The position numbers and the translations under genes were made by a program. The notes below the pieces were generated by a model. The model made no database searches and was not told the origin of the DNA. It worked only from the letters and a program-made list of their open reading frames with translations. Shown piece after piece: positions 92 to 14,837 of a stretch of DNA of 36,776 nucleotides. Origin of the DNA: Candidatus Chloroploca sp. Khr17 (GTDB lineage Bacteria > Chloroflexota > Chloroflexia > Chloroflexales > Chloroflexaceae); NCBI RefSeq assembly GCF_004138165.1, contig NZ_RYFF01000050.1, positions 1 to 36,776 of the forward strand, in the 5' to 3' direction. How positions within the stretch are numbered: the first letter of the stretch is position 1; the number at the start of each line of letters is the position of its first letter.

Positions 92-655
92 TCACCCCCC
101 GATCAACCGCACCAGCGCCTCGTTGAGCATCGCGTAGCCTGCGGCGCTCAGGTGCAGTTCGTCGTCGGCATAGCGGCTGTAGACAAAGCCGTCTGGCCCG
201 CAGAGCACGGCGGCGCTGTCGAGCAGGTGTACGCCGTCGGTCACCAGGGCCGGTAGCCGCGCATTCACGGCCAGAATCGCGGCCTGAACCTGCGAACTGG
301 CCCATGGCCCGCGGGCCAGCGGAAAGATCGTGGTGAGAACGACCTGCGCGGCGAGCTGGCGCGCCTCGGTGACAACCGTTGCGATCGCGGTAAACACAGC
401 GTCTTGCGTTGCGGTGCCCGGCGACCAGCCGGCGAGATCGTTGACGCCAAGCTGGAGCACGATCACATCGGGGTGCAATGGCTCGACCATGCGAGTAAAA
501 TGGCGTGCCAGATAGGCAGCACTGCCACCCGGCACCCCAGCGTTGACAAAACGCAAACCAGCGAGCTTCGGCGTCAGCCACCAGTCCGCCCGCGAGTCGC
601 CAAAGAAGACCACACGGCGTACAGGTGAGGGTTGTGGAGGTGATGATGGTTGCAT
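92..655 (-). CDS. SGNH/GDSL-family hydrolase (probable esterase)
   Basis: 187-residue protein with the SGNH landmarks: GDS at residues 19-21 (nucleophile Ser21), the block II Gly in NAGVPGG near 39-44, GVND at 70-73 (block III), and DELH with Asp165 and His168 as the remaining triad members. The family hydrolyses ester bonds, often O-acetyl groups on sugars. There is no signal peptide or membrane segment, so it should be cytoplasmic. It is the last gene of the minus-strand sugar locus and is separated from the PIG-L gene by a tandem repeat (671-790), so it may be transcribed on its own. No clear Shine-Dalgarno lies before the ATG. A role in removing acyl esters from an imported sugar is inference from the neighbourhood. 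Confidence 0.85.
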   Translation of the reverse strand: MQPSSPPQPSPVRRVVFFGDSRADWWLTPKLAGLRFVNAGVPGGSAAYLARHFTRMVEPLHPDVIVLQLGVNDLAGWSPGTATQDAVFTAIATVVTEARQLAAQVVLTTIFPLARGPWASSQVQAAILAVNARLPALVTDGVHLLDSAAVLCGPDGFVYSRYADDELHLSAAGYAMLNEALVRLIGG

Positions 656-818: not shown

Positions 819-1631
819 CTATACCCAGATCCGCTCGGCGGGCAGCGCCCCCCCTACCTGATGCGCATACGCAGCGATCGCAGCGGTCAGCGCCGCACTC
901 GCGTCGGTTACGGCATCCACCGTGAGCCCGAGTTGGCTCTGGGCCAATTCAACCATCTGGCTCGTGTAGGCCGCAATCGCGGCCAGTTTGGTGTCGAGCG
1001 TTGCGTCGATCACAATGATTTGCTTATTCAATGGTAGGTCAACTTTTGCAAGTCGCTCGGCGAGTGCGCCGAGACGTATCGCATACGGGATATCCTCATA
1101 GTAGATGAGGTTCGTCCCTAACACAGTACGCGCCGCAGCATGCGTCAACAGGTGATCGACATGTGCCCCGATACCCAGTGGGGCATAAAAGGCTGCCTCG
1201 GGCAAACGCTCGCGGAGGGCGATCAGCAGCGGCGTGATCTCACTGTACAAAGGGTCATCGGCCGCAGGCTGATGAAAAAGCGTGGCCCGACTGGTGTAGG
1301 TCGTCGGGTGACGATAGATGGCATCGAGACAACCAGCCCACAGGCCATCGGCCCCAAGCAGCGCCATGGCTGCCTCGTCCTCACGCAGCCGGGTCGCCAC
1401 AACCGCGGCAGGGCCAAGCCCCCAGGCGGTATGAAAGGCCTGCGCGAGTTCACTGAAGGGGCCTTCCGGCGACGGGGTTGCGGTGCAGAGCGTCACGACC
1501 AGCACGCGCTGCCCCGCATGTTGTTGCGCAGCGATCACCCCGCCGCACGACAACGCCGCGTCATCGAGGTGCGGCGAGAGGTAGACATGGTCATAGGTAT
1601 GGCTCAATTCGTTCAGGGAATGGAAGATCAT
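819..1631 (-). CDS. PIG-L family N-deacetylase
   Basis: 270-residue protein of the PIG-L/LmbE zinc deacetylase family. The metal-binding motif PHLDD is at residues 20-24, followed by AALSCGG, and the second metal motif HVDH is at 157-160. RLREDE at 81-86 matches the conserved R-x-x-E region. The family removes acetyl groups from N-acetylglucosamine moieties of lipids, thiol precursors or chitooligosaccharides. No signal peptide is present. The start has GAGG upstream, and only 15 nt separate it from the stop of the SIS-domain gene, so the two are probably co-transcribed. Adjacent SIS and hexosaminidase genes favour free GlcNAc or a short GlcNAc oligosaccharide as substrate, in the manner of archaeal diacetylchitobiose deacetylase. 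Bacillithiol or mycothiol-type deacetylation is a less likely alternative. Confidence 0.88.
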   Translation of the reverse strand: MIFHSLNELSHTYDHVYLSPHLDDAALSCGGVIAAQQHAGQRVLVVTLCTATPSPEGPFSELAQAFHTAWGLGPAAVVATRLREDEAAMALLGADGLWAGCLDAIYRHPTTYTSRATLFHQPAADDPLYSEITPLLIALRERLPEAAFYAPLGIGAHVDHLLTHAAARTVLGTNLIYYEDIPYAIRLGALAERLAKVDLPLNKQIIVIDATLDTKLAAIAAYTSQMVELAQSQLGLTVDAVTDASAALTAAIAAYAHQVGGALPAERIWV

Positions 1632-1646
1632 GTCGTTTTCCTCGCC

Positions 1647-2684
1647 TCAGTGCGTCAACGTAACTTTGTTCAGGCCACGCGGTGCAGCCGGATCGAGCCC
1701 GCGGGCGATCGTAAGATGGTGGCAAAAGAGTTGGGCAGGGATGATACTGACGAGCGGCATCAGCCACGGTGCCACGCCTGCGGGCAGCCGCAACCCGACC
1801 GTTGCTTCTTTCAGCGTCGCTGGATCATCCGAAAGCACCAGCAACTGCGCCCCCTGGTTCGCACGCATCCGTATGAGCAGATCTCGCACCGGGGCAAGCC
1901 CAGGATCGGTTGGGGCGACCGCGAGGATGGCAAAGCCTGGCTCAACCAGCGCAATTGGCCCGTGTTGAAACTCGGCGGTTGAGTAACGCTCGGCGATGAC
2001 ATAGGCCAGTTCCTTGAGTTTGAGTGACCATTCGAGGGCAGTCGCAAAGTGAAAGCCGCGCCCTAGCACAACACATTCACGCATCGCCCGAAAATGCTCG
2101 GCTGCCGCCACAATCTCAGGGTCAAGCCGCAGCGCCTCGGCAGCGGCGGCCGGTACCCGCTCGAGCGCTACCCACATCGCGGGGTCGTCGGCGAGCGCGG
2201 CGGCGAGCAGCGCAAAGAGCATCAATTCGCCGGTGTAGGTCTTGGTGGCGGCCACCGCTCGCTCGGGGCCAGCCTGGATCGCCAGGCTCAATTCGGCAGC
2301 CTCGGCTAGTGGCGACTGTGGATCGTTCGTGATCGCCAACGTCAGTGCGCCCTGCCTTCGGCCTTCAGCCAGGACGGCGACAATGTCAGGTGACTGCCCC
2401 GACTGCGAGACGCCGACAACGAGCGCGTTGGCGAGTTGCGGCGGGCGTTCGTAGATAGTAAAGAGCGAGGGCGCGCCTAGGGCAACCGGGAGACCATTGA
2501 AAGCCCCTAAAACGTACTGCCCATAGATACCAGCATGTTCCGAGGTACCACGGGCCACGAGATACACATATTGTACCCGACGCGCACGGATCGCGGCGGC
2601 GACCGCTGCGACCTGCGTGCGGGCATGATCAAGCAGACCCTGCAGCACGGCAGGTTGTTCACGAATTTCTTCGAGGAGGGTCAT
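1647..2684 (-). CDS. SIS-domain aminosugar isomerase/deaminase (GlmS-isomerase-like, no glutaminase domain)
   Basis: 345 residues made of two SIS domains like the isomerase half of GlmS, without the N-terminal glutaminase domain. Visible signatures are ARGTSEHA (44-51), SQSGQSPD (93-100), TKTYT (147-151), GRGFHFATALEWSLKLKE (208-225), FQHGP (239-243) and the C-terminal GLDPAAPRGLNKVTLT (329-344). Stand-alone proteins of this type act as glucosamine-6-phosphate deaminases (archaeal GlmD, bacterial NagB-II) or related ketose/aldose isomerases such as AgaS. Deamination of GlcN-6-P to fructose-6-P fits the context best. The gene starts 18 nt after the NagZ stop and is followed 15 nt later by the PIG-L gene, so the three form a tight unit. 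The ribosome-binding site is weak. The exact substrate cannot be read from the sequence. Confidence 0.87.
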   Translation of the reverse strand: MTLLEEIREQPAVLQGLLDHARTQVAAVAAAIRARRVQYVYLVARGTSEHAGIYGQYVLGAFNGLPVALGAPSLFTIYERPPQLANALVVGVSQSGQSPDIVAVLAEGRRQGALTLAITNDPQSPLAEAAELSLAIQAGPERAVAATKTYTGELMLFALLAAALADDPAMWVALERVPAAAAEALRLDPEIVAAAEHFRAMRECVVLGRGFHFATALEWSLKLKELAYVIAERYSTAEFQHGPIALVEPGFAILAVAPTDPGLAPVRDLLIRMRANQGAQLLVLSDDPATLKEATVGLRLPAGVAPWLMPLVSIIPAQLFCHHLTIARGLDPAAPRGLNKVTLTH

Positions 2685-2702
2685 AGTTTGGTTTCTTTCA
2701 CG

Positions 2703-4265
2703 TTAGACACTCACCGGCACGGGCAGACAGCCTGGTGCATCCGCCCGCCCAAAGAGGGTGTCGGCAAGCGCGGTAAGCGCTGATGGTGCGATGCTGTAGG
2801 TGCAGAGACAAGTAGGTGCCGACAGGTAGGTCATCGTATCGTAGGGTAGCCGCAGTGCTGCCGCAATCACAGGCACCCCTTGCTGCACCAGCGCCTCGAC
2901 CAGCGCCGCCTGGCCGCGGCGCGTGGTGGCGTTGATTGTTCCGATGATCACGAGATCATAGTTGGCCAGTTCCACGCCGAGCGCAGCCACCTCATCCGCC
3001 GCCGGGTCTGCCGCGATGACCAGTTCATCGGTGCGCGCATGGTAACGACGGACAGCCTCGCCCAGGGCGCAGTGTTCGTAGCTCGAGGTATCGGCAGGTG
3101 TCAGGTCAGCCAGTTCAGGCGTAACCACAACGAGGCGGGCCTCGGCAGGCAAACGCAAGGGCAGACGACCAACCCGATCACGCACCAGCGTGATCGCCCG
3201 CACCGCGACCTCAGCCGCGAGCGCCTGATGCTCGGCACATCCGACAACGCTCAGATCTGGCTGCACCTGGGTCGCCAGCCAATGCTTGAGTGCCGCCACC
3301 CGCCCGACGGCAGCCTCCAGATTCGCCGGGGCGAGATGGCCGGCTTGCGCTGCAGCGCACAGGGTTGCATACGCCTGCTCAGGATCGTTCGGTTCCGCTA
3401 GCAGCAACAGATCGACGCCAGCCGCTGCCGCCTGTACCAGACGGTCGTTCCACGCGGCTTCCGTGCCAAAACCCGCCATGTTCAAGGCATCACTGACCAC
3501 GACCCCGCGAAAACCCAGCGTACCGCGTAACAGATCTTCCAGCACCCCCGGGGCCAGCGTCGCCGGCAAATCAACCCGCCCGGTCAGCGCTGGCACCGCC
3601 AGATGCGCCGCCATCACCAGCCGTGCGCCAGCCGCAATCGTCGCCGCAAAGGGGGCTAGTTCATGTTGCTGCAGCCGCGTCATGTCGTGCGGCAGCACGC
3701 CCAGCGCATGGTGCGTATCGGCGACGGTATCGCCGTGCCCAGGGAAATGCTTGGCTGTCGCGGCGATACCACTCGCTTGCAACCCCTCGACCAGCGCTGC
3801 GGCAAGTCGCCCGACCAACGCAGGATCAGCGCCAAACGAGCGCACCCCGATCACCGGATTGGCCGGGTGGCTCTGCACATCAACGACTGGCGCAAAATTG
3901 ACGTTGACCCCAAGCGCCGCCAGTTCGCGGCCAAGCGCCGCCCCGACCCGCCGGGCCAGTTCTGCATCACCGGTCGCACCCAGCGCCATGTTGCCCGGAA
4001 ACGCCGTTGCCCCCGCCACCGCCTGCAACTGTCCACCCTCTTGATCGGCACAGATCAGCAGCGGCAGTTGCCCCGCCGCCCACGCTGCTCCCTGTAGTGC
4101 CCCGGTGAGCGCTCGCACCTGCGGCGGTGTTCTCAGGTTGAGTTTGCGAAAGAGCGTCACGCCTCCAATCGGGCGCTGCCGCACCAACTCCAGCAACGCT
4201 TCCGGAGCCTCATACCCCTCAAACCAGAGCAAGAGCCGCTGGCTGATCTGATCTTCACGTTCCAT
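2703..4265 (-). CDS. nagZ: GH3 beta-N-acetylhexosaminidase (NagZ-like)
   Basis: About 520 residues. In numbering from the upstream GTG at 4277, the GH3 catalytic barrel shows ADQEGG (77-82), NVNFAPVVDV (125-134), the NagZ-specific loop KHFPGHGDT (176-184) with Asp187-Thr-His189 acting as the acid/base dyad, and the nucleophile motif VVVSDALNMAGF with Asp263. A further region of about 170 residues forms a GH3 C-terminal domain, so it is longer than the roughly 340-residue single-domain E. coli NagZ. It removes terminal beta-linked GlcNAc. No signal peptide is seen, pointing to a cytoplasmic enzyme. The ATG at 4265 is preferred over the GTG at 4277 because GGAAG lies at proper spacing only for the ATG. 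It heads the NagZ-SIS-PIG-L cluster. It may serve peptidoglycan recycling or glycan catabolism. Confidence 0.9.
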   Translation of the reverse strand: MEREDQISQRLLLWFEGYEAPEALLELVRQRPIGGVTLFRKLNLRTPPQVRALTGALQGAAWAAGQLPLLICADQEGGQLQAVAGATAFPGNMALGATGDAELARRVGAALGRELAALGVNVNFAPVVDVQSHPANPVIGVRSFGADPALVGRLAAALVEGLQASGIAATAKHFPGHGDTVADTHHALGVLPHDMTRLQQHELAPFAATIAAGARLVMAAHLAVPALTGRVDLPATLAPGVLEDLLRGTLGFRGVVVSDALNMAGFGTEAAWNDRLVQAAAAGVDLLLLAEPNDPEQAYATLCAAAQAGHLAPANLEAAVGRVAALKHWLATQVQPDLSVVGCAEHQALAAEVAVRAITLVRDRVGRLPLRLPAEARLVVVTPELADLTPADTSSYEHCALGEAVRRYHARTDELVIAADPAADEVAALGVELANYDLVIIGTINATTRRGQAALVEALVQQGVPVIAAALRLPYDTMTYLSAPTCLCTYSIAPSALTALADTLFGRADAPGCLPVPVSV

Positions 4266-4307
4266 CGCTTCTTCCACTTCCCCTTGAAGGTGTCACACGG
4301 TCATAAC

Positions 4308-4335
4308 GTTGCGCCTTTGCGCCTTTGCGTCAAAA
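4308..4335. repeat. Dispersed GCGCCTTTGCGTC element overlapping a stop codon
   Basis: GCGCCTTTGCGCCTTTGCGT followed by CAAAA is a single copy of the family also seen at 671-790, 25271-25290, 33221-33297 and 34791-34866. Its TTTTGACGC end on the minus strand supplies the TGA stop (4330-4332) of the GH38 gene, so the element has landed exactly at the end of that gene. It lies between the GH38 and NagZ genes. Confidence 0.8.
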
Positions 4336-7089
4336 CAACCGCCTACCCAAGGGGCCATGATCTTGCCCCACTAACCGCAAGCTCACAATCTGCTTGGCTC
4401 CCATCACCACTTCAAACACACCCTCGCGCACCGGCATCGGTGCCTCAAGCGGGTCGCCCGCCAGATTCACCCGCTGGGCCTGGCGGATCGCCGGGGGCAC
4501 ATGCAACGTCGCCGTGATCTCAGCCTCTTCAGGATTAAAAATCCGCACCTCCAACCCCAACGCCGTCTGTGCGAGACTACTCAAGAGGGCCCCCCCACTG
4601 AGGCGCAACAGGCTCGCACTCGGCGGCAGGGGCGACGGCGGTTGCGTAACGAGCCTATCGCCAGCCACGCACTGACTCGTGCGCAAGCCAGATGCCAACT
4701 GCTGCGCCAATGCGCCCAGGGCGGCCCGGTCAGGGGCTTCACTCAGTGGCACCAGCCAGTAACGTACCGAGAGTTGCTCACCGAGCAATTGACCATCCGG
4801 CTCACCATCGGTCAACACGGTGCGCCCGGTACTGCGATAGAGCGTCAGGGCGAGCGGGCGGTCAGGCCGATCGAGCACTGCCGTTTCCAGTTGCCCCGGC
4901 GCAACGACGGCCAAGCCACGCCCTCCTGCATAGATCGCGCTCCAATTCAGTTGGGGGCGACCTTCAACTTCCAACTCACGGTAGGTATGCGCGTCGGCAC
5001 GCAACGCCACTGGCCGTTCGAGCACATCAAATGCGCCATCAGCAAGATAGGTTGTGGCGTCTATACCACTCGGCAACAGGACGCGCAGCCGATGGTCAGA
5101 CGCCGTGTTACGCACCGTCGTCGTGACTTCCACCCGCGCACAGCCGGGGCGCAGACTCAGCAGCGTATCAAGCTCCAGCGTTGCCAGCGTCTCGGCGCGC
5201 ATTCCGCGTGCGAAAGCAAAATGCTCGGGCACACGTAGCGCCGTCCGCAAACGGAAGGTCGTCACATACGGGCCGTTCTGCACCAGGGCCACGCTCGTCG
5301 CGGCGCCACACGAGCTATGCGCCGCATCGGCCACGGCCAGGCCGTGGAACCAGCCATCGCCAATGTCGGCGCAATCTTCAAAGCGCAACAGGTGTTCGTA
5401 GATAGCTCCATTCCGTCGATCATGCAGGCGCAACGTACCATCAAGCGCAATGGCAACCTCGATCAACTCGTTCGCCATCGCACGATCGCTGGTCGCCAGA
5501 CCGCGCCCGGGATGGCGCGTTGGCTGCGCGATCGGGCGCGGACTCTGGTGGGGCAGCAGCGGGTCGAGTTCACCCGGGCGCACGGTGAGACTCACGTAGC
5601 CAAGGGCCGGCAGCGCCAGCGGCAGGCTCACGCGCACCTCATTCACCTGAACCCCCTGCGGGAACTTGTGCGGATCGAGGCGCGTTCGCGTCACCCCGAG
5701 GCGCTGGCTCAGGCGCTGGTACGGTACCTCGTTGCCCGCCGGATCGTAGATGCGAAAGGCCGGCAGATCCTCAAAGCCAAAGAACTCGGTGAAAGCCGGC
5801 CAGGTATGCGGAAGATCCAGGGTAAGCTCAACCGTCTCGTTCAGCGGCTGAACCAGCGGGTTAAAGACCACCACCCGCACTTCGTCGGAGGCCACCTCGC
5901 CCTCAATCGCCAGCGCGAGCGCCCTGGTCGCCTCGGTAGCAAGCAGATCGGCAATCTGCCGACACTGGCTAAAGCGGTAGAGCATATCGCGATGCACCAG
6001 ATCAATGCTACAGCCGCCAAGCGAGTCGTGCGGATGGTTCTGGAGCAGCCAGCGCCAGGCAATTTCGAGCAACTGGTGCGGATAGGGCCGCCCGAGGGCG
6101 TGCGCCGCCCAGACGCTGAACGGCTCGGCCCAACGGGTCAGCAGCGTCTCGCAGGCCGCATTTTCCTGCTTGAGCGGCACGCGACTCGCGAGCACGCCCG
6201 GAATGAGCCAGGCCTCGTTCTCGGCCCGCGGTGGCAAACCCGGCTCGCGCAGTTCACCAGTGATCGTCGCGGTGATCGCCGCAGGATCAGCCAGCAGGTC
6301 GTCAAGATAGGCATCGAGGCTCGTATGGCTCAACGCAACGGGCGCACCAGCATCCTGGCTATAAGCCGTCACAGCCTCATAGACCGTCGCATCCCAGGCC
6401 AGATGATCGCCGCCATCAAAGACGAGCAGCGGCGCAACCGTCGTCACCGCGGCCTCGGCGGCAAGGTACGCCTCTAGCCGCGCCCGCGCCTCGGCGGCCT
6501 CCACGCGCCGCCCCGGATCATCGGCAGCGCGCACCTCAAACGCAAAGGCCGAATAGCCGCCGCGCCCAAAGCGATAGGTCGGCAAAATGGTGCCATCAGA
6601 TCCTCGCCAGTGAAAATGCCGCCCCGCCGCGAAATTGACCCCGCGCCAGAGAAAAACCCCGCGCAACCCAAAGCCAGCAAAGATCTGCGGCAACTGACTA
6701 ATATGGCCAAACTGATCACAAACCCAGCCTGCCGACGAGGGCACCGCCCCAAAACGACGCGCCACCGCGCACCCATAGCGCAGGTTACGCACCAGCGCCT
6801 CACCAGACACCAGAAACTCATCAGGCACGGTATACCATGGTCCAATGATGAGCATGCCAGCGCGGGCCAGCGCCTCAACCTCGGCGCGGCGCTCGGGGCG
6901 CACCTCGAGATAATCCTCGAGCATGATCGCCTGGCCGTCAGTCGTAAACGGCCCATGCAACTGGCCTGTTGCCAACGCCTCAAGCACCTCATCGAGCAAC
7001 GCCACCAGCGCCGAGCGAAAATGCTGCATCGGGCGATACCACTCACGATCCCAGTGGCTCGAAAGAATATAATGCGCACGTCGTTGCAT
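4330..7089 (-). CDS. GH38 alpha-mannosidase-family glycoside hydrolase
   Basis: 919 residues from the ATG at 7089, which has GAGG upstream and starts 17 nt after the permease stop. The frame is open further upstream, but that part only overlaps the permease gene. The zinc site is HWD at 12-14 plus NHPHDS at 351-356. The nucleophile is Asp125 in CDQFGHISQLPQI. DGQAIMLEDYLEVRPE (51-66) and LIIGPWYTVPDEFLVSGEAL match bacterial GH38 enzymes of the MngB (mannosylglycerate hydrolase) kind. The remainder is the long all-beta GH38 C-terminal region. No signal peptide, so it acts inside the cell on an imported alpha-mannoside or related sugar. It sits directly downstream of the importer genes. The substrate is unproven: mannosylglycerate, mannosyl oligosaccharides or another alpha-glycoside remain possible. 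The TGA stop falls inside a dispersed repeat. Confidence 0.92.
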   Translation of the reverse strand: MQRRAHYILSSHWDREWYRPMQHFRSALVALLDEVLEALATGQLHGPFTTDGQAIMLEDYLEVRPERRAEVEALARAGMLIIGPWYTVPDEFLVSGEALVRNLRYGCAVARRFGAVPSSAGWVCDQFGHISQLPQIFAGFGLRGVFLWRGVNFAAGRHFHWRGSDGTILPTYRFGRGGYSAFAFEVRAADDPGRRVEAAEARARLEAYLAAEAAVTTVAPLLVFDGGDHLAWDATVYEAVTAYSQDAGAPVALSHTSLDAYLDDLLADPAAITATITGELREPGLPPRAENEAWLIPGVLASRVPLKQENAACETLLTRWAEPFSVWAAHALGRPYPHQLLEIAWRWLLQNHPHDSLGGCSIDLVHRDMLYRFSQCRQIADLLATEATRALALAIEGEVASDEVRVVVFNPLVQPLNETVELTLDLPHTWPAFTEFFGFEDLPAFRIYDPAGNEVPYQRLSQRLGVTRTRLDPHKFPQGVQVNEVRVSLPLALPALGYVSLTVRPGELDPLLPHQSPRPIAQPTRHPGRGLATSDRAMANELIEVAIALDGTLRLHDRRNGAIYEHLLRFEDCADIGDGWFHGLAVADAAHSSCGAATSVALVQNGPYVTTFRLRTALRVPEHFAFARGMRAETLATLELDTLLSLRPGCARVEVTTTVRNTASDHRLRVLLPSGIDATTYLADGAFDVLERPVALRADAHTYRELEVEGRPQLNWSAIYAGGRGLAVVAPGQLETAVLDRPDRPLALTLYRSTGRTVLTDGEPDGQLLGEQLSVRYWLVPLSEAPDRAALGALAQQLASGLRTSQCVAGDRLVTQPPSPLPPSASLLRLSGGALLSSLAQTALGLEVRIFNPEEAEITATLHVPPAIRQAQRVNLAGDPLEAPMPVREGVFEVVMGAKQIVSLRLVGQDHGPLGRRLF

Positions 7090-7106: not shown

Positions 7107-7979
7107 CTACCCCTTCACTGCCCCCGAAAGCCCGGCCACAAAGTAGCGCTGCGCAAAAATAAAGGCGATCAGAATCGGGATGATCACCATCACCGCCCCA
7201 GCCGCGATCAGGCGAAAATCGGCGGTAAACATCCCCCGCAACGCCATCAAACCCACGGGCAACGTATACAGTTCCCGCGTACGCAGCATCAGTGACGGCC
7301 AGAGCAGCGCGTTCCACGACGTGACCGCCGTAAAGACCGCCGCCGTCGCCAGCGAGGGCCGGATCGTCGGCGTCAACACTGACCACCAGATCCGCAACTC
7401 GTTCGCCCCATCGATCCGCGCCGCATCAATCAGATCATTCGGCACCGTCTTGTACGCCTGGCGCAACAGAAAGATATTGAACGCACTGAAGACACTCGGA
7501 AAGATCAGCGCCCAAAGCGTATCGTAGTACTGAAAGACCTGCACCGCCAGCAGATACCCAGGAATAAAGGTCAGTTCAGCCGGCACAATCAGTGTCGCCA
7601 GCAGCAAATAAAAGATCACCTCGCGCCCAGGAAAATTCATCTTGGCGAGCGGATAGGCCGCCAGCGACGAAACCAGCACATTGAGCGTCACGGTCAGCGC
7701 GGCTACAAAGAGGCTATTGAGGAAAAAGCGCCAGATCGGCAATTGATCCCAGACGCGGGCAAAATTTGCCAGTGTTGGCTCACGCGGCAGAAACTGCGGC
7801 GGAAAGCCAAAAACCGCATCACTCGGTCCCTTCAACGCCGTCATCAGTAACCAGAGAAATGGCAACACCGTCACGATGCTCGCCAGCAACAACAAGCCAT
7901 ACCAGAAGAGATGGCGCGTCCACGCGGGACGAACGGAGCGCGTCCGGCCTGTGGACATTGGCTCAGCAACTGTGCTCAT
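7107..7979 (-). CDS. Sugar ABC transporter permease, MalG/UgpE type
   Basis: 290 residues with about six transmembrane segments and the inner-membrane permease EAA loop DAARIDGANELRIWWSVLTP at 185-204, which docks with the ATPase. The N-terminus is MalG-like (LFWYGLLLLASIVTVLPFLW, 24-43), followed by a periplasmic loop and the binding-protein-dependent transport domain. GGAGGA precedes the start, and the gap to the partner permease stop is only 11 nt. Together with the next gene and the solute-binding protein it forms a CUT1-type carbohydrate importer. The ATP-hydrolysing subunit is not encoded in this window, as is common for importers that share an MsmK/UgpC-type ATPase. Confidence 0.93.
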   Translation of the reverse strand: MSTVAEPMSTGRTRSVRPAWTRHLFWYGLLLLASIVTVLPFLWLLMTALKGPSDAVFGFPPQFLPREPTLANFARVWDQLPIWRFFLNSLFVAALTVTLNVLVSSLAAYPLAKMNFPGREVIFYLLLATLIVPAELTFIPGYLLAVQVFQYYDTLWALIFPSVFSAFNIFLLRQAYKTVPNDLIDAARIDGANELRIWWSVLTPTIRPSLATAAVFTAVTSWNALLWPSLMLRTRELYTLPVGLMALRGMFTADFRLIAAGAVMVIIPILIAFIFAQRYFVAGLSGAVKG

Positions 7980-7990
7980 TCCAGATCCTC

Positions 7991-8869
7991 CTATCCTTCC
8001 CCTCGCTCAAGCATCCGCACATTAATGATCGAGAAGGTCAGGGTGATCACCAGCAAGACCATCGCAATCGCCGAGGCGTAGCCAACATTTTGCAAGCGAA
8101 AAGCCTGCTTCCAGAGGTAAAACACCATCGTCGAACCGCTATTGAGAATGCCACCCGTTCCATTCGTGAGCACATAGATCTCATCGAAGACTTTGAGCGC
8201 ACTGAGGCTCGAAATCACGGCCACAAAGACAATCGATGGGCGCAACCCTGGCACACTGACATGCCAATGCTTCTGAAATTCATTGCATCCGTCGATGCGC
8301 GCCGCATCATAGAGATCCTCTGGGATCGATTGCAACCCGGCGAGAAAGACGACCATATAGTAGCCAACGCCCATCCAGGTCGTCATCATCATCGCGATCG
8401 GCAACGTCCAGCCTGGCTCGGTCAGGAAGATGATTGGCTTCTCGATCATCCCCGTCGAGAGCAGCATGCCATTGATCGGGCCGCCACTTCCATCAAAAAG
8501 GAATTGCCAGGCGATCCCAACCGCCACTGCCCCCGTGATCACCGGGATATAGTAGAGCGCCCGGAAGACCCCGATGCCCAGCAAGGGGCGGTTGACAACA
8601 ATCGCCAGGGCAATCGCACTCACAATGATCACCGGCGTCACCAGCAAGTAGGTGAACGAGTTGCGCAACGACAGCCAGAAGACCCCGTCGCCGATCAACC
8701 GCTGGTAGTTGGCTAGTCCTACCGGCTGCGGTGGACGCAAAATGTTGTACTCAGTGAAACTCAAATAGCCAACACTCGCCAACGGATAGAGCGTAAAGGT
8801 CGCCATAAAGAGCAGCGCCGGAAGCAAAAAGAGATAGGGTGTCAGGCGCGAGCGCAACGTATTGCTCAT
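7991..8869 (-). CDS. Sugar ABC transporter permease, MalF/UgpA type
   Basis: 292 residues from the ATG at 8869, chosen because GAGA lies 6 nt upstream. An ATG at 8875 and a longer frame to 8938 exist but lack support. TPYLFLLPALLFMATFTLYP forms the first membrane segment, and the EAA loop DAARIDGCNEFQKHWHVSVP is at about 188-207. About six transmembrane helices are seen. It is the membrane partner of the MalG-type permease that follows 11 nt downstream. A 280-nt gap containing a GC-rich hairpin separates it from the solute-binding protein gene, which may lower permease expression relative to the binding protein. Confidence 0.92.
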   Translation of the reverse strand: MSNTLRSRLTPYLFLLPALLFMATFTLYPLASVGYLSFTEYNILRPPQPVGLANYQRLIGDGVFWLSLRNSFTYLLVTPVIIVSAIALAIVVNRPLLGIGVFRALYYIPVITGAVAVGIAWQFLFDGSGGPINGMLLSTGMIEKPIIFLTEPGWTLPIAMMMTTWMGVGYYMVVFLAGLQSIPEDLYDAARIDGCNEFQKHWHVSVPGLRPSIVFVAVISSLSALKVFDEIYVLTNGTGGILNSGSTMVFYLWKQAFRLQNVGYASAIAMVLLVITLTFSIINVRMLERGEG

Positions 8870-8997
8870 GATCATTCTCGTTTCTGCCCTTAGATCAGGT
8901 TTCAGGCTACTGTTCAAGCGTACTTTGGTGTAGCACACCTGGACGATGTGCGTCTGAGGAGTGTCGGCTTATGGTCTATCAAAAATGAATCCGCTCC

Positions 8998-9149: not shown

Positions 9150-10550
9150 CTATCGAATCAAGCCATTGGCCTGCTGCACCGCGTCGCTCAGCACGGTCTG
9201 CGGATCGGCACCGCCGAAGATGGCCGCCTCAATCGCCTGGCGAACAATGTCGTTCACTTCAGCCGGGCTTGGAATTTCGGGCAAAATGTTCTTTTGCTGC
9301 GAAATAATGCCTTCGGCCAGCGGGCGAATCTGATCCTCGATCGCGACTGGCTGCTGCGTGAAGAAGGGATCTTCGTAACTTTCCGGGGTCGAGGGGTAGA
9401 TCGCGACGAGCTTGGCAAATTCGAGCATGCTCTGCGGGTTCGAGAAGAAGGCCGCTAGCGCCGCCGATGCCTTCGGATACGCGGTGCTCTGGCTCACGAC
9501 AATCGACATCGAGACGGGCGGCAAGGCCCCCGACCGCCCGATCGCCCGCGGGGCCAGGGCCAGGTAGCCATAACGACCAGGGTTGCCCTCGCGTACCAGA
9601 CGGATCAGCTGCGGGCCGGTTACATAGAAGGGCATCTGCGCTGCGGTGAAACGCTCCAGACCAATGCGGTCGTCGGCGTCGTTCAACAGGATCAGGTCGC
9701 GGTGGATTGCCCCAGCCTCGTTCAGATCAACATAGTCCTGCAACCACTGTACCGCTTCGGGTGAGTCAAAGGTGAAGGCGGTGCCGTCGGCGTTCATTAC
9801 TTCGACATTGCCCTCGTAGGCCATTGTCTGCAACAGGTTGCCGGTCTGCATGCGCAAACCACACGGGATACCGCTCGCCTCGTAGAAGTCGAGACAGAAT
9901 TGCTTCTGCTCATCGAAGGTCGTGGGCAAATCGTCCATGGTATACCCGGCGTTCTCGAGTACGTCGGTGTTGGCCAGATAGGCGTCAACCGCCTGGTACC
10001 AGGGCACCTGAAAACTCGACCCGCCAACATTGGTCTGGTTGAACAGATCAGGGAAGTACTGCTCCTGCACGGCTGGGGGCAACGCTTCGCTCATGTTCAG
10101 CAGTTGATCGTTCTGGGCAAATTCTTGCACCCAACCCGTTGGCACGTTGACGACATCCGGCGCGTTGCCGGCCGCCAGGCTGTTGCGATACTCCTCCTGG
10201 AGCGTAGCCTGACGATCTTCCCACTTCACCGTGACGCCTGGGTAGGCTTCGTTGAAGCGGGCAATCGTGCTCTGAATATACTCATCGAAGGTCGGCGAGA
10301 GGAAGAAGGTCCAGAAGGTGATCGTAGCCCCTTCCTCAACCTCCATCACTGCCTCGGGGTTTGGCCCGGGGGTTGGGGTGACCACCACTTGCTGTTCAAC
10401 AACCTCGGTCTGCACGACAACTTGGGTCTGCACGACAACCTGAGGTTCAGCGGTGGCCTGGGTCGCTGGGGCGGCTCCGCCACAGGCAACCAGGATCATG
10501 GCGAACATGGTCAGAAAGATGGTGAACGCAACACTTCGCTTGCGGATCAT
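9150..10550 (-). CDS. Extracellular sugar-binding lipoprotein of ABC importer (SBP_bac_1 type)
   Basis: 466 residues from the ATG at 10550, which has AGGAG ten nt upstream. The ATG at 10568 has no such site. A lipoprotein signal peptide ends in LVAC with the lipidated Cys at residue 23. A low-complexity linker rich in Val, Gln and Thr (about 33-62), ending TPTPGP, tethers the domain to the membrane. Such linkers are frequent in Chloroflexota. The ligand-binding body starts with TITFWTFF and resembles family 1 carbohydrate-binding proteins. Motifs such as NAPDVVNV, FQVPWYQAVDAYLANTD and TFDSPEAVQWLQDYVDL fit the family. It captures the sugar for the two permeases downstream. The sugar specificity cannot be read, but the GH38/NagZ genes suggest a mannose- or GlcNAc-containing oligosaccharide. 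Confidence 0.93.
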   Translation of the reverse strand: MIRKRSVAFTIFLTMFAMILVACGGAAPATQATAEPQVVVQTQVVVQTEVVEQQVVVTPTPGPNPEAVMEVEEGATITFWTFFLSPTFDEYIQSTIARFNEAYPGVTVKWEDRQATLQEEYRNSLAAGNAPDVVNVPTGWVQEFAQNDQLLNMSEALPPAVQEQYFPDLFNQTNVGGSSFQVPWYQAVDAYLANTDVLENAGYTMDDLPTTFDEQKQFCLDFYEASGIPCGLRMQTGNLLQTMAYEGNVEVMNADGTAFTFDSPEAVQWLQDYVDLNEAGAIHRDLILLNDADDRIGLERFTAAQMPFYVTGPQLIRLVREGNPGRYGYLALAPRAIGRSGALPPVSMSIVVSQSTAYPKASAALAAFFSNPQSMLEFAKLVAIYPSTPESYEDPFFTQQPVAIEDQIRPLAEGIISQQKNILPEIPSPAEVNDIVRQAIEAAIFGGADPQTVLSDAVQQANGLIR

Positions 10551-10732
10551 AGGGCTCTTGCTCCTCATACTTTGTGGTCGGCGGTACGTTGCTCGACAAG
10601 GGGCCTACAACATCAAGGATGTCGTCCCCCGTACGCCTGGCCCCGCCAACAAAAAACAGACCGTAACGTGGTGCCTAGTATCGTTGCTTAGCCTAACATG
10701 GCGAGCGGCAATCACCCCCTTTCTGTGGCCGT

Positions 10733-12271
10733 TCAAACAATGGCTTCCAGGTCAAAATCAACCTCGAAGGTGCGTCCCCAGGGGAACCGGACGCTTGCCT
10801 GATCGAGGCGGTAGCGTTCAGCAAAGCCTGGCAACGTGGCGAGAAAATGCGCGAGTCCAGTTGCACTCCGTTGCCGCGCTAACTCGGCCCACGCCGGGGT
10901 GATGGGATCGTGGTGGCCGGTCTGCTGGGTGAGCCAGGCTCGCACGTCGGCCCGGATGATATGTTGATAGCCCCAATCTTCGACCAGGCGGTGTAGCAGT
11001 AGCTGTTCGTGCGCAACCGCCCCGGCAGGCGTGCTGATCAATTGGGCGGCAAAGGCCTGCGCCAGCGTGGTGCCGACGGTATTGCCAGCCGTATTCCAGG
11101 CCCCGTAGGCCGTCAGTTGGGCCAGCAACACACGCTCGCTCAGCACCTCCATCAGCGACGGGTCGGCCCCATTCGGGTAGGCGACATCGGCAATGGCGAT
11201 CGCCTGCCCCATCGCCAGCCGGCAGGCCGCTTCATCAGCAAGCCTGTTCAATGAGGGGAGACGTGCGGTCTTCTCCTCTGCTGCATGCGCCGGATCCCAC
11301 TCGGCCCGTCGCGCTACCGGTGCATTCACCCCCACCCAGATCGGCGCATCACTCTCGACCAGATGACCTCCCACTGCGGCCACTTGCCGCGCCACAGTCA
11401 GCCGGATCGGACCATCTTCATAGGCCGCCACCTGCGCGGCACCCTCCGCAGGCGCATACGCCACCGTCACCGCTGGGCACACCCCGGCCCGCTCATTCAA
11501 CAGCCGCGCGACCAGCACAGACCCCACCTCATCGGCACCGGGGTACATCAAAAGGGCGGGGGTTGACGGAGCCTGGTCAAGCGTAGCACCCGGGCGAGCC
11601 AACAAGGCGCCCCAACTCGCCAGCCAGCCCTTTTCCCGCGAGGGCAAGCCAAACGGACTCGTATCGTCAGAACTGAGCACCAGCAGGTCAAGCGTGCCGT
11701 CATCCAGCAGGCCGAGGGCCGCAAGATTGACGGTATGGTTGCGGAGACGCCGGGCGAGCAGATCGCGCCGGATCGTCGCTGGGATCGACGCCTCGGCTGC
11801 CGCCAACGCCTCGGCAACCGCCTCGCCCCGCCCGTGCCGATCAAGCAACTGCGACAGCGCATAGAGCCGTGCGCCATACTCGGCCCAGTAAGCGGGCTCT
11901 TCGACGGCGTCATTCGCGTTGGAAACCCGTGTGACGACATTAAAGGCGTAGATCGGCAGGCGTGGCGCAAGCGAGCGCACCGTGCGCAAGACCTCCAGAC
12001 GGTTCAAAACAACCGCCACCGGCTCATCAGAGATGCGCGAGGCGATCAAGCCACCATAGCCGAGTTGTTCGAGCGCAACAATCAGCCCATCAAGCTGCGG
12101 GGCCGTTGCCATCAACCAGGCCGCCAACATCTGGGCATCGCCCGGCTTGCGCCCCGTACTCAACGCCCCCGGTGGCGGCAGCAGCACCTCGGCACCCGCA
12201 ATCGCCGCCACCATCACCGGATAGCGCGTATTCGCCGGTCGCTCATCAAGGGGAATCAAACCAAGCTTCAT
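10733..12271 (-). CDS. DUF4127 family protein
   Basis: 512 residues. The family signature is clear: PLDERPANTRYP at 7-18, SSDDTSPFG at 200-208, YPGADEVG at 243-250, ADVAYPNGAD at 361-370 and AYGAWNTAGNTVG at 388-400. No signal peptide or membrane segment is visible. To my knowledge DUF4127 has no established biochemical activity. The many conserved Asp, Glu and Asn residues suggest an enzyme, possibly metal-dependent. The start codon is 3 nt past the stop of the epimerase gene, so it is translationally coupled to it and is part of the ROK-controlled transcript. Being embedded among aminosugar and mannoside enzymes makes it a candidate for a missing catabolic step. That role is inference. Confidence 0.88.
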   Translation of the reverse strand: MKLGLIPLDERPANTRYPVMVAAIAGAEVLLPPPGALSTGRKPGDAQMLAAWLMATAPQLDGLIVALEQLGYGGLIASRISDEPVAVVLNRLEVLRTVRSLAPRLPIYAFNVVTRVSNANDAVEEPAYWAEYGARLYALSQLLDRHGRGEAVAEALAAAEASIPATIRRDLLARRLRNHTVNLAALGLLDDGTLDLLVLSSDDTSPFGLPSREKGWLASWGALLARPGATLDQAPSTPALLMYPGADEVGSVLVARLLNERAGVCPAVTVAYAPAEGAAQVAAYEDGPIRLTVARQVAAVGGHLVESDAPIWVGVNAPVARRAEWDPAHAAEEKTARLPSLNRLADEAACRLAMGQAIAIADVAYPNGADPSLMEVLSERVLLAQLTAYGAWNTAGNTVGTTLAQAFAAQLISTPAGAVAHEQLLLHRLVEDWGYQHIIRADVRAWLTQQTGHHDPITPAWAELARQRSATGLAHFLATLPGFAERYRLDQASVRFPWGRTFEVDFDLEAIV

Positions 12272-12274
12272 ACA

Positions 12275-13438
12275 TTACGCCCCATCACGATCAATCGCCT
12301 GGAGACTAAAGAGCAACGCTCGCGGCACATGGAAAAAGCCCTTGTAATTGCCACCTTTGCTTGTCAGCGCCAGATCGCCCCATCGATCGCAGTACCCAAA
12401 CCACTCGCCATAGACCGGATCAACAAAATGAGCGTAGGTATAACGATCCACCCGCTCGAGCCAGGTGAGCCAGCGCGCCTCGCCAGTCAGCGTATAGGCC
12501 AGCACCAGCGCATAGATCGCCTCGGCATGCGGCCACCAGAGCTTCATCGTGGCCTCAAGTTGGAGCGTCGGGCGACCCGCGAGATCCATAAAATAGAAGA
12601 GGCCGTCGTACTGCGTGTCCCAGCCTAATTCAAGCGCCCCCGCCAGAGCCGCGAACGCAACCTGCTGCGCCTGGGCGTCGGGGTTACGGGCAAGCATCTG
12701 CAACAGAATCCAGACCGTCTCAATCGTGTGCCCAGGGCTAAAGAGCCGCCCTTCGGGAAGCGCCGTCAGATCACGGCCATCGTAGGCAACCACCTCGCGG
12801 AAGACCCGATGCGCCGCATCATAGTGACGCAACACCCCGGCCACCGTCGCACGCAGCACCTCGTCATAGCGCGGATCATCAAACTGGCGGGCAAGCTCAA
12901 GCGCCATCATGCCTACCACCAACCGATCCGCCAGTTGACTCACTGCAACCTGGCCGGGCAACGCCAGGCGCCCAAGCAACGTCGGCTGCTCGATCCATGC
13001 CACAATGCGCCAGAAGAGCGCCACGGCCTCATCAAGACACGCCTGATCGCCCGTCGCCAGTCCATACTCAAACAGACCCATCTGCACAAAAACGGCCGCA
13101 TACGGCTTGCGCTGAAAAAAGAAGGGCTGGCCCTCGCGCGTCAGGCTAAAGAAGATCCGGCCCTCGGCGTCGCGCCCATGGCGGCGGATAAAATCCACCC
13201 CGAGCCGCGCCGCCGTCAGCCACTCGTCACGTGGTTCCAACTCACGATAGAGCCGGGCGAACATCCAGACCGCACGTCCCTGGAGCCACATATATTTACG
13301 CGGATCATAGACCGTGCCATCGCGATCGAGACAGGTAAAGTACCCGCCGTGCTCATGATCGAGCGCATGGCGGAGCCAAAAAGGAATCACCGCGTCAACG
13401 AGATCGCGCCGGTAGCGCTCTGCATAAGCCTCTAGCAT
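12275..13438 (-). CDS. N-acylglucosamine 2-epimerase (AGE) family protein
   Basis: 387 residues from the ATG at 13438, which has GAGG five nt upstream. The frame is open to 13516, but that part lies in repeat-like intergenic DNA. The protein is an (alpha/alpha)6-barrel of the AGE/RnBP/cellobiose 2-epimerase family. Conserved His237 (SPGHTIETVW), His304 (WWPHAEAI) and His370 (FFHVPR) correspond to the catalytic and substrate-binding histidines, and the His237-His370 spacing matches the family. Members interconvert GlcNAc and ManNAc, glucose and mannose units, or epimerise cellobiose or mannobiose. It is cytoplasmic. It lies between the ROK regulator and DUF4127, coupled to the latter with a 3-nt gap. 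Which sugar is epimerised is not visible. GlcNAc/ManNAc or Man/Glc conversion would both suit the locus. Confidence 0.9.
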   Translation of the reverse strand: MLEAYAERYRRDLVDAVIPFWLRHALDHEHGGYFTCLDRDGTVYDPRKYMWLQGRAVWMFARLYRELEPRDEWLTAARLGVDFIRRHGRDAEGRIFFSLTREGQPFFFQRKPYAAVFVQMGLFEYGLATGDQACLDEAVALFWRIVAWIEQPTLLGRLALPGQVAVSQLADRLVVGMMALELARQFDDPRYDEVLRATVAGVLRHYDAAHRVFREVVAYDGRDLTALPEGRLFSPGHTIETVWILLQMLARNPDAQAQQVAFAALAGALELGWDTQYDGLFYFMDLAGRPTLQLEATMKLWWPHAEAIYALVLAYTLTGEARWLTWLERVDRYTYAHFVDPVYGEWFGYCDRWGDLALTSKGGNYKGFFHVPRALLFSLQAIDRDGA

Positions 13439-13530
13439 CATTGCCTCTGCTTGTGATCCACGTGTTAGACCAATTGGAATTGAGCGATCCGCATCGGTAG
13501 GGCTGCCCGAGCGCATTGGAACGTCATATG

Positions 13531-13569: not shown

Positions 13570-14763
13570 TTATGGCCTGAAAAGGCGTTCAATCCCCAAT
13601 TCAAACGTCAAGAGTGGCGCTGCCGCGCCGAGCAGCGGCGCGTCTGGGCCAAGGGCAACGACTTCGACAACCGTTGCGCCGGCCAAAGCCGGCAGGCAAC
13701 GTCGCGCCAGATTGGTCACAACCGCCTTGCGCAACAGTTCACCAAGCGGGGCGACATGGCCGGTAATCAGCACTCGCCGAATATTCAGCACGCTCACCAG
13801 ACTCGCCAGCGCAATGCCAAGGTAACGCCCGGCATCGGCAATCACCGCACGCGCCAGCGGATCACCAGCCTCGGCCAGGTGCGCCAGTTCCTCCAGCGTT
13901 GGCTCGGCCGAGAGTGCCGAAGCCTGGGTCAAACGCAACTCACGCGCCTGGCGCAGGATCGCCGCACTGCTCGCCACGGTCTCCAGGCACCCACGATTGC
14001 CACACTTGCACAACGGCCCATCTTCCGCGACCACCAGATGTCCAATCTCACCGGCCCCATTGCCTTCACCCGTATACAGGCGATCACCGAGCACAATGCC
14101 TGCCCCAATACCATTGCCAACCTTGACCACAATCAGATCGGGGGTGCCCTGAGCCTGCCCAAACATATACTCGGCCAGGGCCAGACTATGGCTATCATTC
14201 GCCAGATAGACCGGCAACTGACAGCGCTCTTGCACCAGTGCGCGCAAAGGCAGGTCAACCCAGCCAAAATCAACCGCGCGCACCACCGTCCCGCGCTCAA
14301 CATCGATCAGGCCCGGCGTATTGATGCCAATGCCCAGCAGGGGATATTCCGCCGTCTGTCGCAACTGATTCGCCACCGCATAGATCGTCTCAAGCACAGC
14401 CGCCCCATCACCCGACGGCACCGCCCGCGTCACCGGTGAACGCAATTCACCGCGCAGATTGACCAGCGCACCCATCACCTGCGCCTTCGTCACACTGATC
14501 GCCGCCACCTGACGCGCATCCGCGACCACACTGAGCAAAATCGGCGTCCGCCCAATACCCACCGTCCCGTGGCCGACCTCCTCAAGCAACCCTCGCTCGA
14601 GCAACTCGCCCACCGCGTCCGAAACCGTCGCCCGCGTCAACTGCGTCAGACGCGCCAGATCAGCCCGGCTAATCGCGCCGTACTCATAGATCGTGCGCAA
14701 CAAGAGACGACTGTTGTGCTCTTTGGTGTGCTGGCGGGTCGCCTTTTCGAGCAACGGATCCAC
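13570..14763 (-). CDS. ROK-family transcriptional repressor (NagC/XylR type)
   Basis: 397 residues starting at a GTG with GAGGG upstream. An N-terminal winged helix-turn-helix spans about 30-62 (ISRADLARLTQLTRATVSDA). The C-terminal sugar-binding ROK domain shows NTPGLIDVERG near 148-158, LANDSH at 187-192, GEIGH at 238-242 and the zinc motif CKCGNRGC at 252-259. The ATP-binding DxGGT of ROK kinases is replaced by ISVTKAQVMG, so it should be a regulator, not a kinase. NagC/XylR-type proteins bind an operator until a sugar ligand releases them. It is the first gene of the minus-strand sugar locus and is preceded by a good promoter with a near-palindromic AT-rich site, which suggests self-regulation and control of the downstream genes. 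Confidence 0.92.
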   Translation of the reverse strand: MDPLLEKATRQHTKEHNSRLLLRTIYEYGAISRADLARLTQLTRATVSDAVGELLERGLLEEVGHGTVGIGRTPILLSVVADARQVAAISVTKAQVMGALVNLRGELRSPVTRAVPSGDGAAVLETIYAVANQLRQTAEYPLLGIGINTPGLIDVERGTVVRAVDFGWVDLPLRALVQERCQLPVYLANDSHSLALAEYMFGQAQGTPDLIVVKVGNGIGAGIVLGDRLYTGEGNGAGEIGHLVVAEDGPLCKCGNRGCLETVASSAAILRQARELRLTQASALSAEPTLEELAHLAEAGDPLARAVIADAGRYLGIALASLVSVLNIRRVLITGHVAPLGELLRKAVVTNLARRCLPALAGATVVEVVALGPDAPLLGAAAPLLTFELGIERLFRP

Positions 14764-14788
14764 AGTTTTACCCTCAACCTATTTAGAT

Positions 14789-14801
14789 AGTTCAATAAAC
14801 T
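14789..14801. promoter_or_regulatory. Candidate ROK operator
   Basis: AGTTCAATAAACT is an imperfect palindrome with AGTT/AACT arms (10 of 13 positions symmetric). It lies between the -10 box and the GTG of the ROK gene. AT-rich palindromes of the form AGTT...AACT are typical of NagC/XylR-type operators. I did not find the same motif upstream of the epimerase or the binding-protein gene. Function is inferred. Confidence 0.45.
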
Positions 14802-14809
14802 TACAAAAG

Positions 14810-14837
14810 AGTGTAGCATATTTTCAGGGGCTGTCAA
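14810..14837 (-). promoter_or_regulatory. Sigma-70-type promoter of the ROK gene
   Basis: On the minus strand a perfect TTGACA (14837-14832) is followed after 16 nt by TACACT (14815-14810). The start codon is at 14763, leaving a leader of about 40 nt that contains the candidate operator. Confidence 0.75.

Follow-up and report, generated by a model that had tools for sequence, protein, structure and literature searches.

Analysis of a 36,776-nucleotide stretch of DNA from the green filamentous bacterium Candidatus Chloroploca sp. Khr17 (Chloroflexota; Chloroflexales; Chloroflexaceae), which is one entire contig (NZ_RYFF01000050.1) of a 6.38-Mb genome and is hereafter called the window, points to an operon that imports an oligosaccharide containing N-acetylglucosamine (GlcNAc) and feeds the GlcNAc to glycolysis without the deacetylase NagA; we assign this reading a probability of roughly 0.7. 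The central components are a PIG-L protein, which we propose to be a catabolic GlcNAc de-N-acetylase in the position of NagA, and the adjacent SIS domain protein, the proposed glucosamine-6-phosphate (GlcN-6-P) deaminase. At the genomic level, the non-orthologous replacement of NagA by PIG-L is well supported, and the biochemical steps are proposed; from the sequences, we infer the substrate, the kinase and the order of the steps, with deacetylation preceding phosphorylation. In the proposed pathway, an ATP-binding cassette (ABC) importer would take up the oligosaccharide, and a glycoside hydrolase of family 3 (GH3; GH20 in one relative) would free GlcNAc in the cytoplasm; a GH38 glycosidase and an epimerase may additionally bring in alpha-linked mannose or N-acetylmannosamine (ManNAc). 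PIG-L would then strip the acetyl group from free GlcNAc, giving glucosamine, a general ROK sugar kinase encoded elsewhere in the genome would phosphorylate the glucosamine, and the SIS protein would turn GlcN-6-P into fructose-6-phosphate and ammonia. A general glucokinase can handle glucosamine, and GlcNAc less so.

The PIG-L, SIS and GH3 open reading frames (ORFs) are all on the minus strand, separated by gaps of 15 and 18 bp, and form the tail end of a series of co-directional minus-strand genes that runs from 14763 down to 819 in the order ROK regulator, N-acyl-D-glucosamine 2-epimerase-like protein (AGE), DUF4127 protein, ABC subunits, GH38, GH3, SIS, PIG-L (Table 1). An earlier note on this DNA, drawn from the sequence alone, had described a tightly spaced minus-strand cluster of a PIG-L deacetylase, a glutaminase-less SIS protein and a NagZ-type GH3 enzyme, and the Pfam matches, the short gaps and the conserved motifs bear this out. 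The span of 819-4265 that it gave to the cluster takes in the three genes but ends within the GH3 ORF, which is listed to 4277, and a cluster of three is correct as far as it goes but falls short of the extent of the co-directional set. The grouping of the trio is more than chance because neighboring copies recur in relatives, with 48-97% identity for SIS and 51-90% for PIG-L.

The PIG-L protein scores above the curated cut-off for the PIG-L/LmbE-type domain PF02585 and contains the motifs PHLDD (H21, D23, D24) and HVDH (H157, D159, H160), with all six of these residues invariant across 40 homologues. The zinc ligands and the aspartate base are thereby retained: H21, D24, H160 and D23 match His16, Asp19, His164 and Asp18 of the teicoplanin deacetylase (numbering as in the available part of PMC4101496), and for Arg75 the alignment with that enzyme holds only to within one residue. 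By eye, no N-terminal hydrophobic stretch was seen in the protein. The predicted structure (mean pLDDT 96.5) is closest to the teicoplanin/A40926 pseudoaglycone deacetylases Orf2 and Dbv21 (Z 27.4-29.1), followed by BshB (Z 20.6-20.7) and the archaeal diacetylchitobiose deacetylases (Dac; Z 19.4-20.1); Dac is absent among the five phmmer matches of PIG-L down to an E-value of 1.

PIG-L proteins are functionally mixed, and three further PIG-L genes are present in the same genome, so that the window protein might belong to thiol (bacillithiol-type) or cell-envelope biosynthesis, its adjacency to SIS being due to chance or to some other reason. One of the paralogues (G000:C104:72041-77033, locus L093; genomes, contigs and loci are given here by our labels G, C and L) adjoins FemAB and HEAT-repeat genes. 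A bacillithiol role was rejected, given that the score on the BshB1 model, 28.2 bits, is far below the cut-off of 182.5. Against the broader form of this explanation, the adjacency to SIS holds in all 11 linked loci, even where the transporters and hexosaminidases have changed, and in a scan of named genomes SIS genes were found near 6 of 80 PIG-L loci, all six among the seven best-scoring ones. We consider a role in thiol or envelope biosynthesis quite improbable. The paralogue of L093 is widespread in the family, and a ROK protein is encoded near it in L093 as well as in L097, L098 and L102.

The SIS protein consists of SIS domains only and lacks a glutaminase domain. Of the 14 models compared, the NagB-II model (NF046059) gives the best score, 247 bits against a cut-off of 430; the GlmS models give 226-236 bits and the archaeal GlmD model 68 bits (cut-off 580), all below the respective cut-offs. 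Being below the equivalog cut-off, the protein is on its sequence named NagB-II-like here and is not filed as a member of NagB-II; for the SIS proteins of L060 and L061, from two relatives, GlmS is the best-scoring model. Residues E218, K222, E225, H241 and K340 are conserved, and invariant in nine orthologues; E225, H241 and K340 are presumably the active-site glutamate, histidine and C-terminal lysine by comparison with GlmS. Thus, the protein combines the GlmS-type isomerase fold, without the glutaminase, with the active-site residues. The nearest structures in PDB are 3fj1, 7kqa and 8eol, the last of which is titled glucosamine-6-phosphate deaminase. The closeness of the GlmS and NagB-II scores, along with the fact that the GlcN-6-P deaminase reaction is reversible in principle, would be compatible with an anabolic, ammonia-dependent GlcN-6-P synthase in a cluster for amino-sugar synthesis. 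However, a separate GlmS-like gene is present in a 648-codon frame on contig C12, and SIS shares its operon with an importer, glycosidases and a NagC-like regulator; an anabolic role therefore seems very improbable. The possibility that SIS is the GlmS of this genome was rejected on account of the C12 gene.

The search of the complete genome yielded no NagA match at an E-value of 0.001, under conditions in which a loose search was positive in 14 of 14 controls, seven of them above the cut-off. The single NagB-I match in the genome reaches 29.8 bits (cut-off 236.9), YdjC/ChbG has no matches, and the only match for a BadF-type kinase, at 21.7 bits, is below the cut-off of 31.5; the single MurQ match (30.8 bits, cut-off 302) is the SIS gene of the window itself. 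The genome encodes four ROK proteins, one of which is the regulator of the operon; the other three are kinase-like, are located elsewhere (contigs C54, C104 and C61) and score below the cut-offs of their best models, and the one on contig C54 carries the DIGGT ATP motif. The complete nagA/nagB set that the earlier note held to be incompatible with its proposal was thus searched for and not found, and the proposal itself, a GlcNAc route that does not use NagA, gains genomic support from the lack of a NagA match, the lack of a NagB-I match above the cut-off in this genome and the presence of PIG-L in the place of NagA beside SIS.

Within the family, PIG-L and SIS proteins of these kinds are found in the same 10 of 41 genomes. 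The SIS score is 310 bits or more in nine of the ten; in the tenth (G010:C155, L091:9395-10634), only a 77-residue C-terminal piece of SIS lies beside PIG-L. PIG-L and a full-length SIS are adjacent in eight of the ten genomes, and in G031 the two are on separate contigs. Chloroflexus islandicus (L117) has orthologues of both proteins. In G028, GH20 takes the place of GH3. The order GH3-SIS-PIG-L is retained in L085 and L116 (AL-N1 metagenome-assembled genome), where the transporter is only 24-34% like that of the window. A second group of PIG-L proteins occurs widely in the family, and those of its members that were looked at are not beside SIS. NagA is above the cut-off in 2 of the 41 genomes, G016 and G031, both PIG-L bearers. 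In G016, the respective locus (L094, G016:C295) is a MurQ-NagK-NagA cluster with GH3 and ABC permease matches and appears to be a separate N-acetylmuramic acid/GlcNAc-6-phosphate (GlcNAc-6-P) route in a genome that also holds the PIG-L/SIS pair; in G031, MurQ and BadF matches lie just before NagA on the same contig.

The comparison of gene neighborhoods in other Chloroflexota, which the earlier note had suggested, shows that PIG-L occupies the position next to SIS that NagA has next to related SIS genes elsewhere in the phylum. Among 400 genomes of the phylum, the SIS family was detected in 162 (E-value 1e-80) and NagA in 178 (E-value 1e-40). The census of neighbors covered 131 SIS loci, namely 11 from the family and AL-N1 and the best-scoring 120 from the rest, leaving aside the 24 lowest-scoring SIS places among the matches listed and the unlisted ones; neighbors were counted above 40 bits on profiles built from one seed each, and many loci stop at contig ends. 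NagA is encoded within 5 kb in 49 of these loci (within 300 bp in 46), PIG-L in 11 (all within 300 bp) and YdjC in 4, a number that may be too low given that the YdjC profile matched only five proteins; no locus combines two kinds of deacetylase. GH3 or GH20 is present in 10 of the 11 PIG-L-linked loci. Outside the family, PIG-L was found in 1 of the 120 loci, in G324, of the same order, together with GH3 and a ROK regulator. In two loci from another family of this order (L201 and L203), the cluster is ROK-ABC-GH20-NagA-SIS. The YdjC/ChbG-type deacetylases near NagB-II-like SIS genes (L197, L199, L212, L231) represent a third kind at this position. In one Chloroflexota family, SIS is followed by an ATP-grasp, D-Ala-D-Ala-ligase-like gene (L227:7144-8181, L230:7168-8139, L236:7125-8132, L243:5011-6033), with no gene for any of the three deacetylases nearby. 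A fourth deacetylase was sought in six loci that have GH3 next to SIS but lack NagA, PIG-L and YdjC (L209, L236, L241, L243, L247, L283); nothing telling was found among the few other neighbors scanned, the next gene in L236 and L243 being the ATP-grasp/Ddl-like one.

In the SIS tree (130 rows, the L091 remnant having been dropped), the starred branches require that the partners of PIG-L be split between two places. Nine rows group with the window (fork 88), and the SIS proteins of G028 and G031 fall within a starred clade of 37 rows, 20 of which are NagA-linked; G031 was paired by genome rather than by adjacency, so that its locus L089 counts as having no deacetylase in the census and as a PIG-L partner in the tree. 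In the PIG-L tree (94 rows, after removal of six loci from genomes that were represented already and of rows scoring below 100 bits), the 12 SIS-linked PIG-L proteins belong to one starred set of 17. Both trees come from quick searches without bootstrap. Thus, one kind of PIG-L is paired with two NagB-II-like lineages, whether the pair arose more than once or the SIS gene was exchanged; in both cases, no other observation speaks as strongly for a shared pathway of the two enzymes.

The order of the steps can be read in other ways. PIG-L might deacetylate GlcNAc-6-P after phosphorylation, the same step as that of NagA, within the usual succession of kinase, deacetylase and deaminase. The adjacency of PIG-L to SIS, which mirrors that of NagA elsewhere, and the three ROK kinase-like genes are compatible with this order, and ROK proteins can be GlcNAc kinases; moreover, G028 encodes MurQ and no NagA above the cut-off, so that something in that genome may handle GlcNAc-6-P. 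However, a BadF kinase is encoded within 5 kb of 19 of the 49 NagA loci but of none of the 11 PIG-L loci (Fisher p 0.012, uncorrected for kinship, with some PIG-L loci cut by contig ends), which fits deacetylation first and is suggestive only. In addition, the two PIG-L genomes with NagA keep it beside MurQ, the product of which is GlcNAc-6-P, and the nearest solved relatives of PIG-L act on an unphosphorylated GlcNAc unit, as described in the accessible portion of PMC4101496. Deacetylation after phosphorylation is, in our estimate, unlikely.

Alternatively, PIG-L could act before cleavage, on a chitobiose-like oligosaccharide or a mannose/ManNAc glycan, with GH3 or GH38 cutting the deacetylated product. 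The archaeal Dac is a PIG-L enzyme that acts in this manner, on (GlcNAc)2, according to the available text of PMC6566704 and PMC4101496. The model of the window protein shares the Dac fold. However, the GH3 enzyme fits the signature of N-acetylhexosaminidases and is nearest to GH3 N-acetylglucosaminidases, and its substitute in G028 is a GH20 enzyme. Enzymes of the GH20 family need the N-acetyl group, which counts against deacetylation before cleavage, and we regard this order as rather improbable, too.

Several observations weigh against the route favored here, in which free GlcNAc is deacetylated and then phosphorylated. The MurQ gene of G028, in a genome with no NagA above the cut-off, leaves room for GlcNAc-6-P as the substrate of PIG-L, and G016 and G031 hold PIG-L, SIS and NagA together, that NagA lying beside MurQ and a BadF kinase. 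In 67 of the 131 SIS loci, none of NagA, PIG-L and YdjC is encoded within 5 kb, so the presence of SIS does not by itself mean that deacetylation is encoded locally. Only one adjacent pair (L092) stands behind the second SIS lineage because in L089 PIG-L is on another contig, and five of the PIG-L proteins in the starred set of 17 are not SIS-linked. The SIS and AGE proteins do not reach the curated cut-off of the NCBIfam model on which each scores best. The border that defines the PIG-L kind, at 259.5 bits and above with the next protein at 223.9, was chosen after the data had been seen, as were the classes of neighbors, and the members of the family are not independent of each other. Finally, the genome contains a single copy of the operator-like site, the one in front of the ROK gene, so that a search for this operator does not pinpoint the kinase.

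The remaining features of the set are listed in Table 1. The GH3 protein contains KHFPGHGDTVADTH, and its KHFPGHG....DTH pattern fits what we take to be the signature of NagZ-type hexosaminidases; its score on the NCBIfam beta-N-acetylhexosaminidase model is 190 bits (cut-off 207), the nearest PDB entry is the GH3 beta-N-acetylglucosaminidase 6k5j, and no signal peptide was seen by eye. The ORF of the GH38 gene runs to 7386 in the ORF list, the start in the table being inferred. The nearest structures of AGE are the GlcNAc 2-epimerases 2gz6, 6f04 and 1fp3 (294-313 bits), compared with 71 bits or less for cellobiose epimerases. Together, GH38 (4330-7089) and AGE (12275-13516) suggest that the true substrate is a glycan with mannose or ManNAc. 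No gene for an ABC ATPase was seen in the cluster. The DUF4127 gene (10733-12271) is kept in the sugar operon across several genera; no paper on this domain was found in the open-access literature searched, and a structure model built from a two-row alignment (pLDDT 36.8) was not used. The ROK regulator contains a winged helix-turn-helix and, by motif check, lacks the DxGxT ATP motif. Upstream of its gene, the inverted repeat AGTT-N5-AACT recurs in three of six relatives (L313, L314 and L085, not L086, L202 and L315); in the genome of the window it is the sole match at up to two mismatches, compared with three matches of a reversed control pattern. The promoter scan gave three sigma-70-like sites against 3.9 in shuffled sequences, that is, no excess, and the terminator scan likewise gave no more sites than in the shuffles. 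The SGNH/GDSL hydrolase gene downstream of PIG-L is probably outside the core set; in the scan of named genomes, such a gene adjoins PIG-L in 1 of the 80 loci (L113). The gap between the two genes (656-818) contains, by eye, about four tandem copies of a unit of about 30 bases, and a stretch resembling this unit is also found in the gap between GH38 and GH3.

Table 1. Features of the putative amino-sugar operon and its flanks in the window
Feature	Position	Strand	Remarks
SGNH/GDSL hydrolase	92..655	-	PF13472
PIG-L (LmbE-type) deacetylase	819..1631	-	270 aa; PF02585 40.5 bits, cut-off 28.2
SIS protein, NagB-II-like	1647..2684	-	345 aa; PF01380 is the sole Pfam match
GH3 NagZ-like beta-N-acetylhexosaminidase	2703..4277	-	524 aa; PF00933 275 bits
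GH38 alpha-mannosidase-like glycosidase	4330..7089	-	PF01074/PF09261/PF07748; nearest PDB 2wyh, 3lvt
ABC sugar permease (UgpE/MalG-like)	7107..7979	-	PF00528; NCBIfam below cut-off
ABC sugar permease (UgpA/MalF-like)	7991..8938	-	PF00528; NCBIfam below cut-off
ABC solute-binding protein, lipoprotein-like	9150..10568	-	PF13416/PF01547; lipobox-like LVAC by eye
DUF4127 protein	10733..12271	-	PF13552 456 bits; relatives' copies 43-90% identical
AGE, N-acyl-D-glucosamine 2-epimerase-like	12275..13516	-	PF07221; NF052547 367 bits, cut-off 600
ROK regulator, NagC-like	13570..14763	-	PF00480 and MarR_2; NagC model 212 bits, cut-off 650
Operator-like inverted repeat AGTT-N5-AACT	14788..14803	-	between promoter-like site and ROK start
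Sigma-70-like promoter TTGACA-N16-TACACT	14810..14837	-	sequence scan, weak

More tentatively, and with somewhat less than even confidence, these observations can be extended to a general scheme for Chloroflexales, in which GlcNAc would first be deacetylated and then phosphorylated. PIG-L would make free glucosamine, so that a general glucokinase suffices without NagK and NagA; the slot beside the NagB-II-like genes could be filled interchangeably by NagA, PIG-L or ChbG/YdjC, one kind of PIG-L going with two NagB-II-like lineages; and GH38 along with the GlcNAc 2-epimerase would extend the route to ManNAc glycans. In genome annotation, NagA commonly serves as a marker of GlcNAc use. The genome of the window gave no NagA match, and PIG-L would take over its step, so annotation may underestimate how far Chloroflexota consume the sugars of chitin and peptidoglycan. 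The pattern further offers a testable case of unrelated folds exchanged at one position of a pathway, and bacteria might here have a route with deacetylation ahead of phosphorylation. Among the matches listed in searches of the open-access literature, no account of a PIG-L protein in the breakdown of GlcNAc by bacteria came up, which is weak evidence of absence given that most subscription papers are outside it.

GlmD is the SIS-type deaminase of the archaeal chitin route. In that route, as described in the available part of PMC6566704, Dac acts on chitobiose and GlmA is an exo-beta-D-glucosaminidase; the ChiA-Dac-GlmA-GlmD route resembles the window in joining a PIG-L-fold deacetylase to a SIS-type deaminase. 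It differs in employing GlmA, in contrast to the GH3 or GH20 hexosaminidase of the window-type clusters; GlmA was not found among the cluster proteins scanned, the whole genome not having been searched for it. The window SIS protein is not of the GlmD family and the nearest relative of its PIG-L is not Dac, and close kinship to archaeal Dac and GlmD was rejected on the phmmer matches, the lower Z scores and the GlmD score given above. The wording "archaeal-like" in the earlier note is accordingly not supported, with SIS closest to NagB-II, PIG-L closest to the teicoplanin/A40926 deacetylases and a glycosidase of family GH3; on sequence grounds, the archaeal likeness is one of analogy only. Orf2 and Dbv21, the nearest solved relatives of PIG-L in both sequence and fold, with the same zinc and catalytic residues (PMC4101496, accessible part), act in antibiotic biosynthesis, whereas the window PIG-L is encoded in a catabolic operon. 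In the Shewanella NagK-NagA-NagB-II pathway, NagB-II activity is reported as confirmed in the available text of PMC2996990; a SIS-type GlcN-6-P deaminase would be the shared element, the window SIS scoring best on the NagB-II model but below its cut-off, whereas the window genome has no NagA match and no BadF-type kinase above the cut-off. The nearest described system is the ChiR regulon of Thermotoga maritima, with the ROK protein ChiR, chiEFG, cbsA and nagAB and a chitobiose operon (PMC3750489, available part), which like the window combines a ROK regulator, an ABC importer, a glycoside hydrolase and GlcNAc catabolic genes; in the window, PIG-L replaces NagA, and GH38, AGE and DUF4127 are added. 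The clusters of L201 and L203 follow the same logic with a homologous SIS gene, but with NagA rather than PIG-L and with GH20 rather than GH3.

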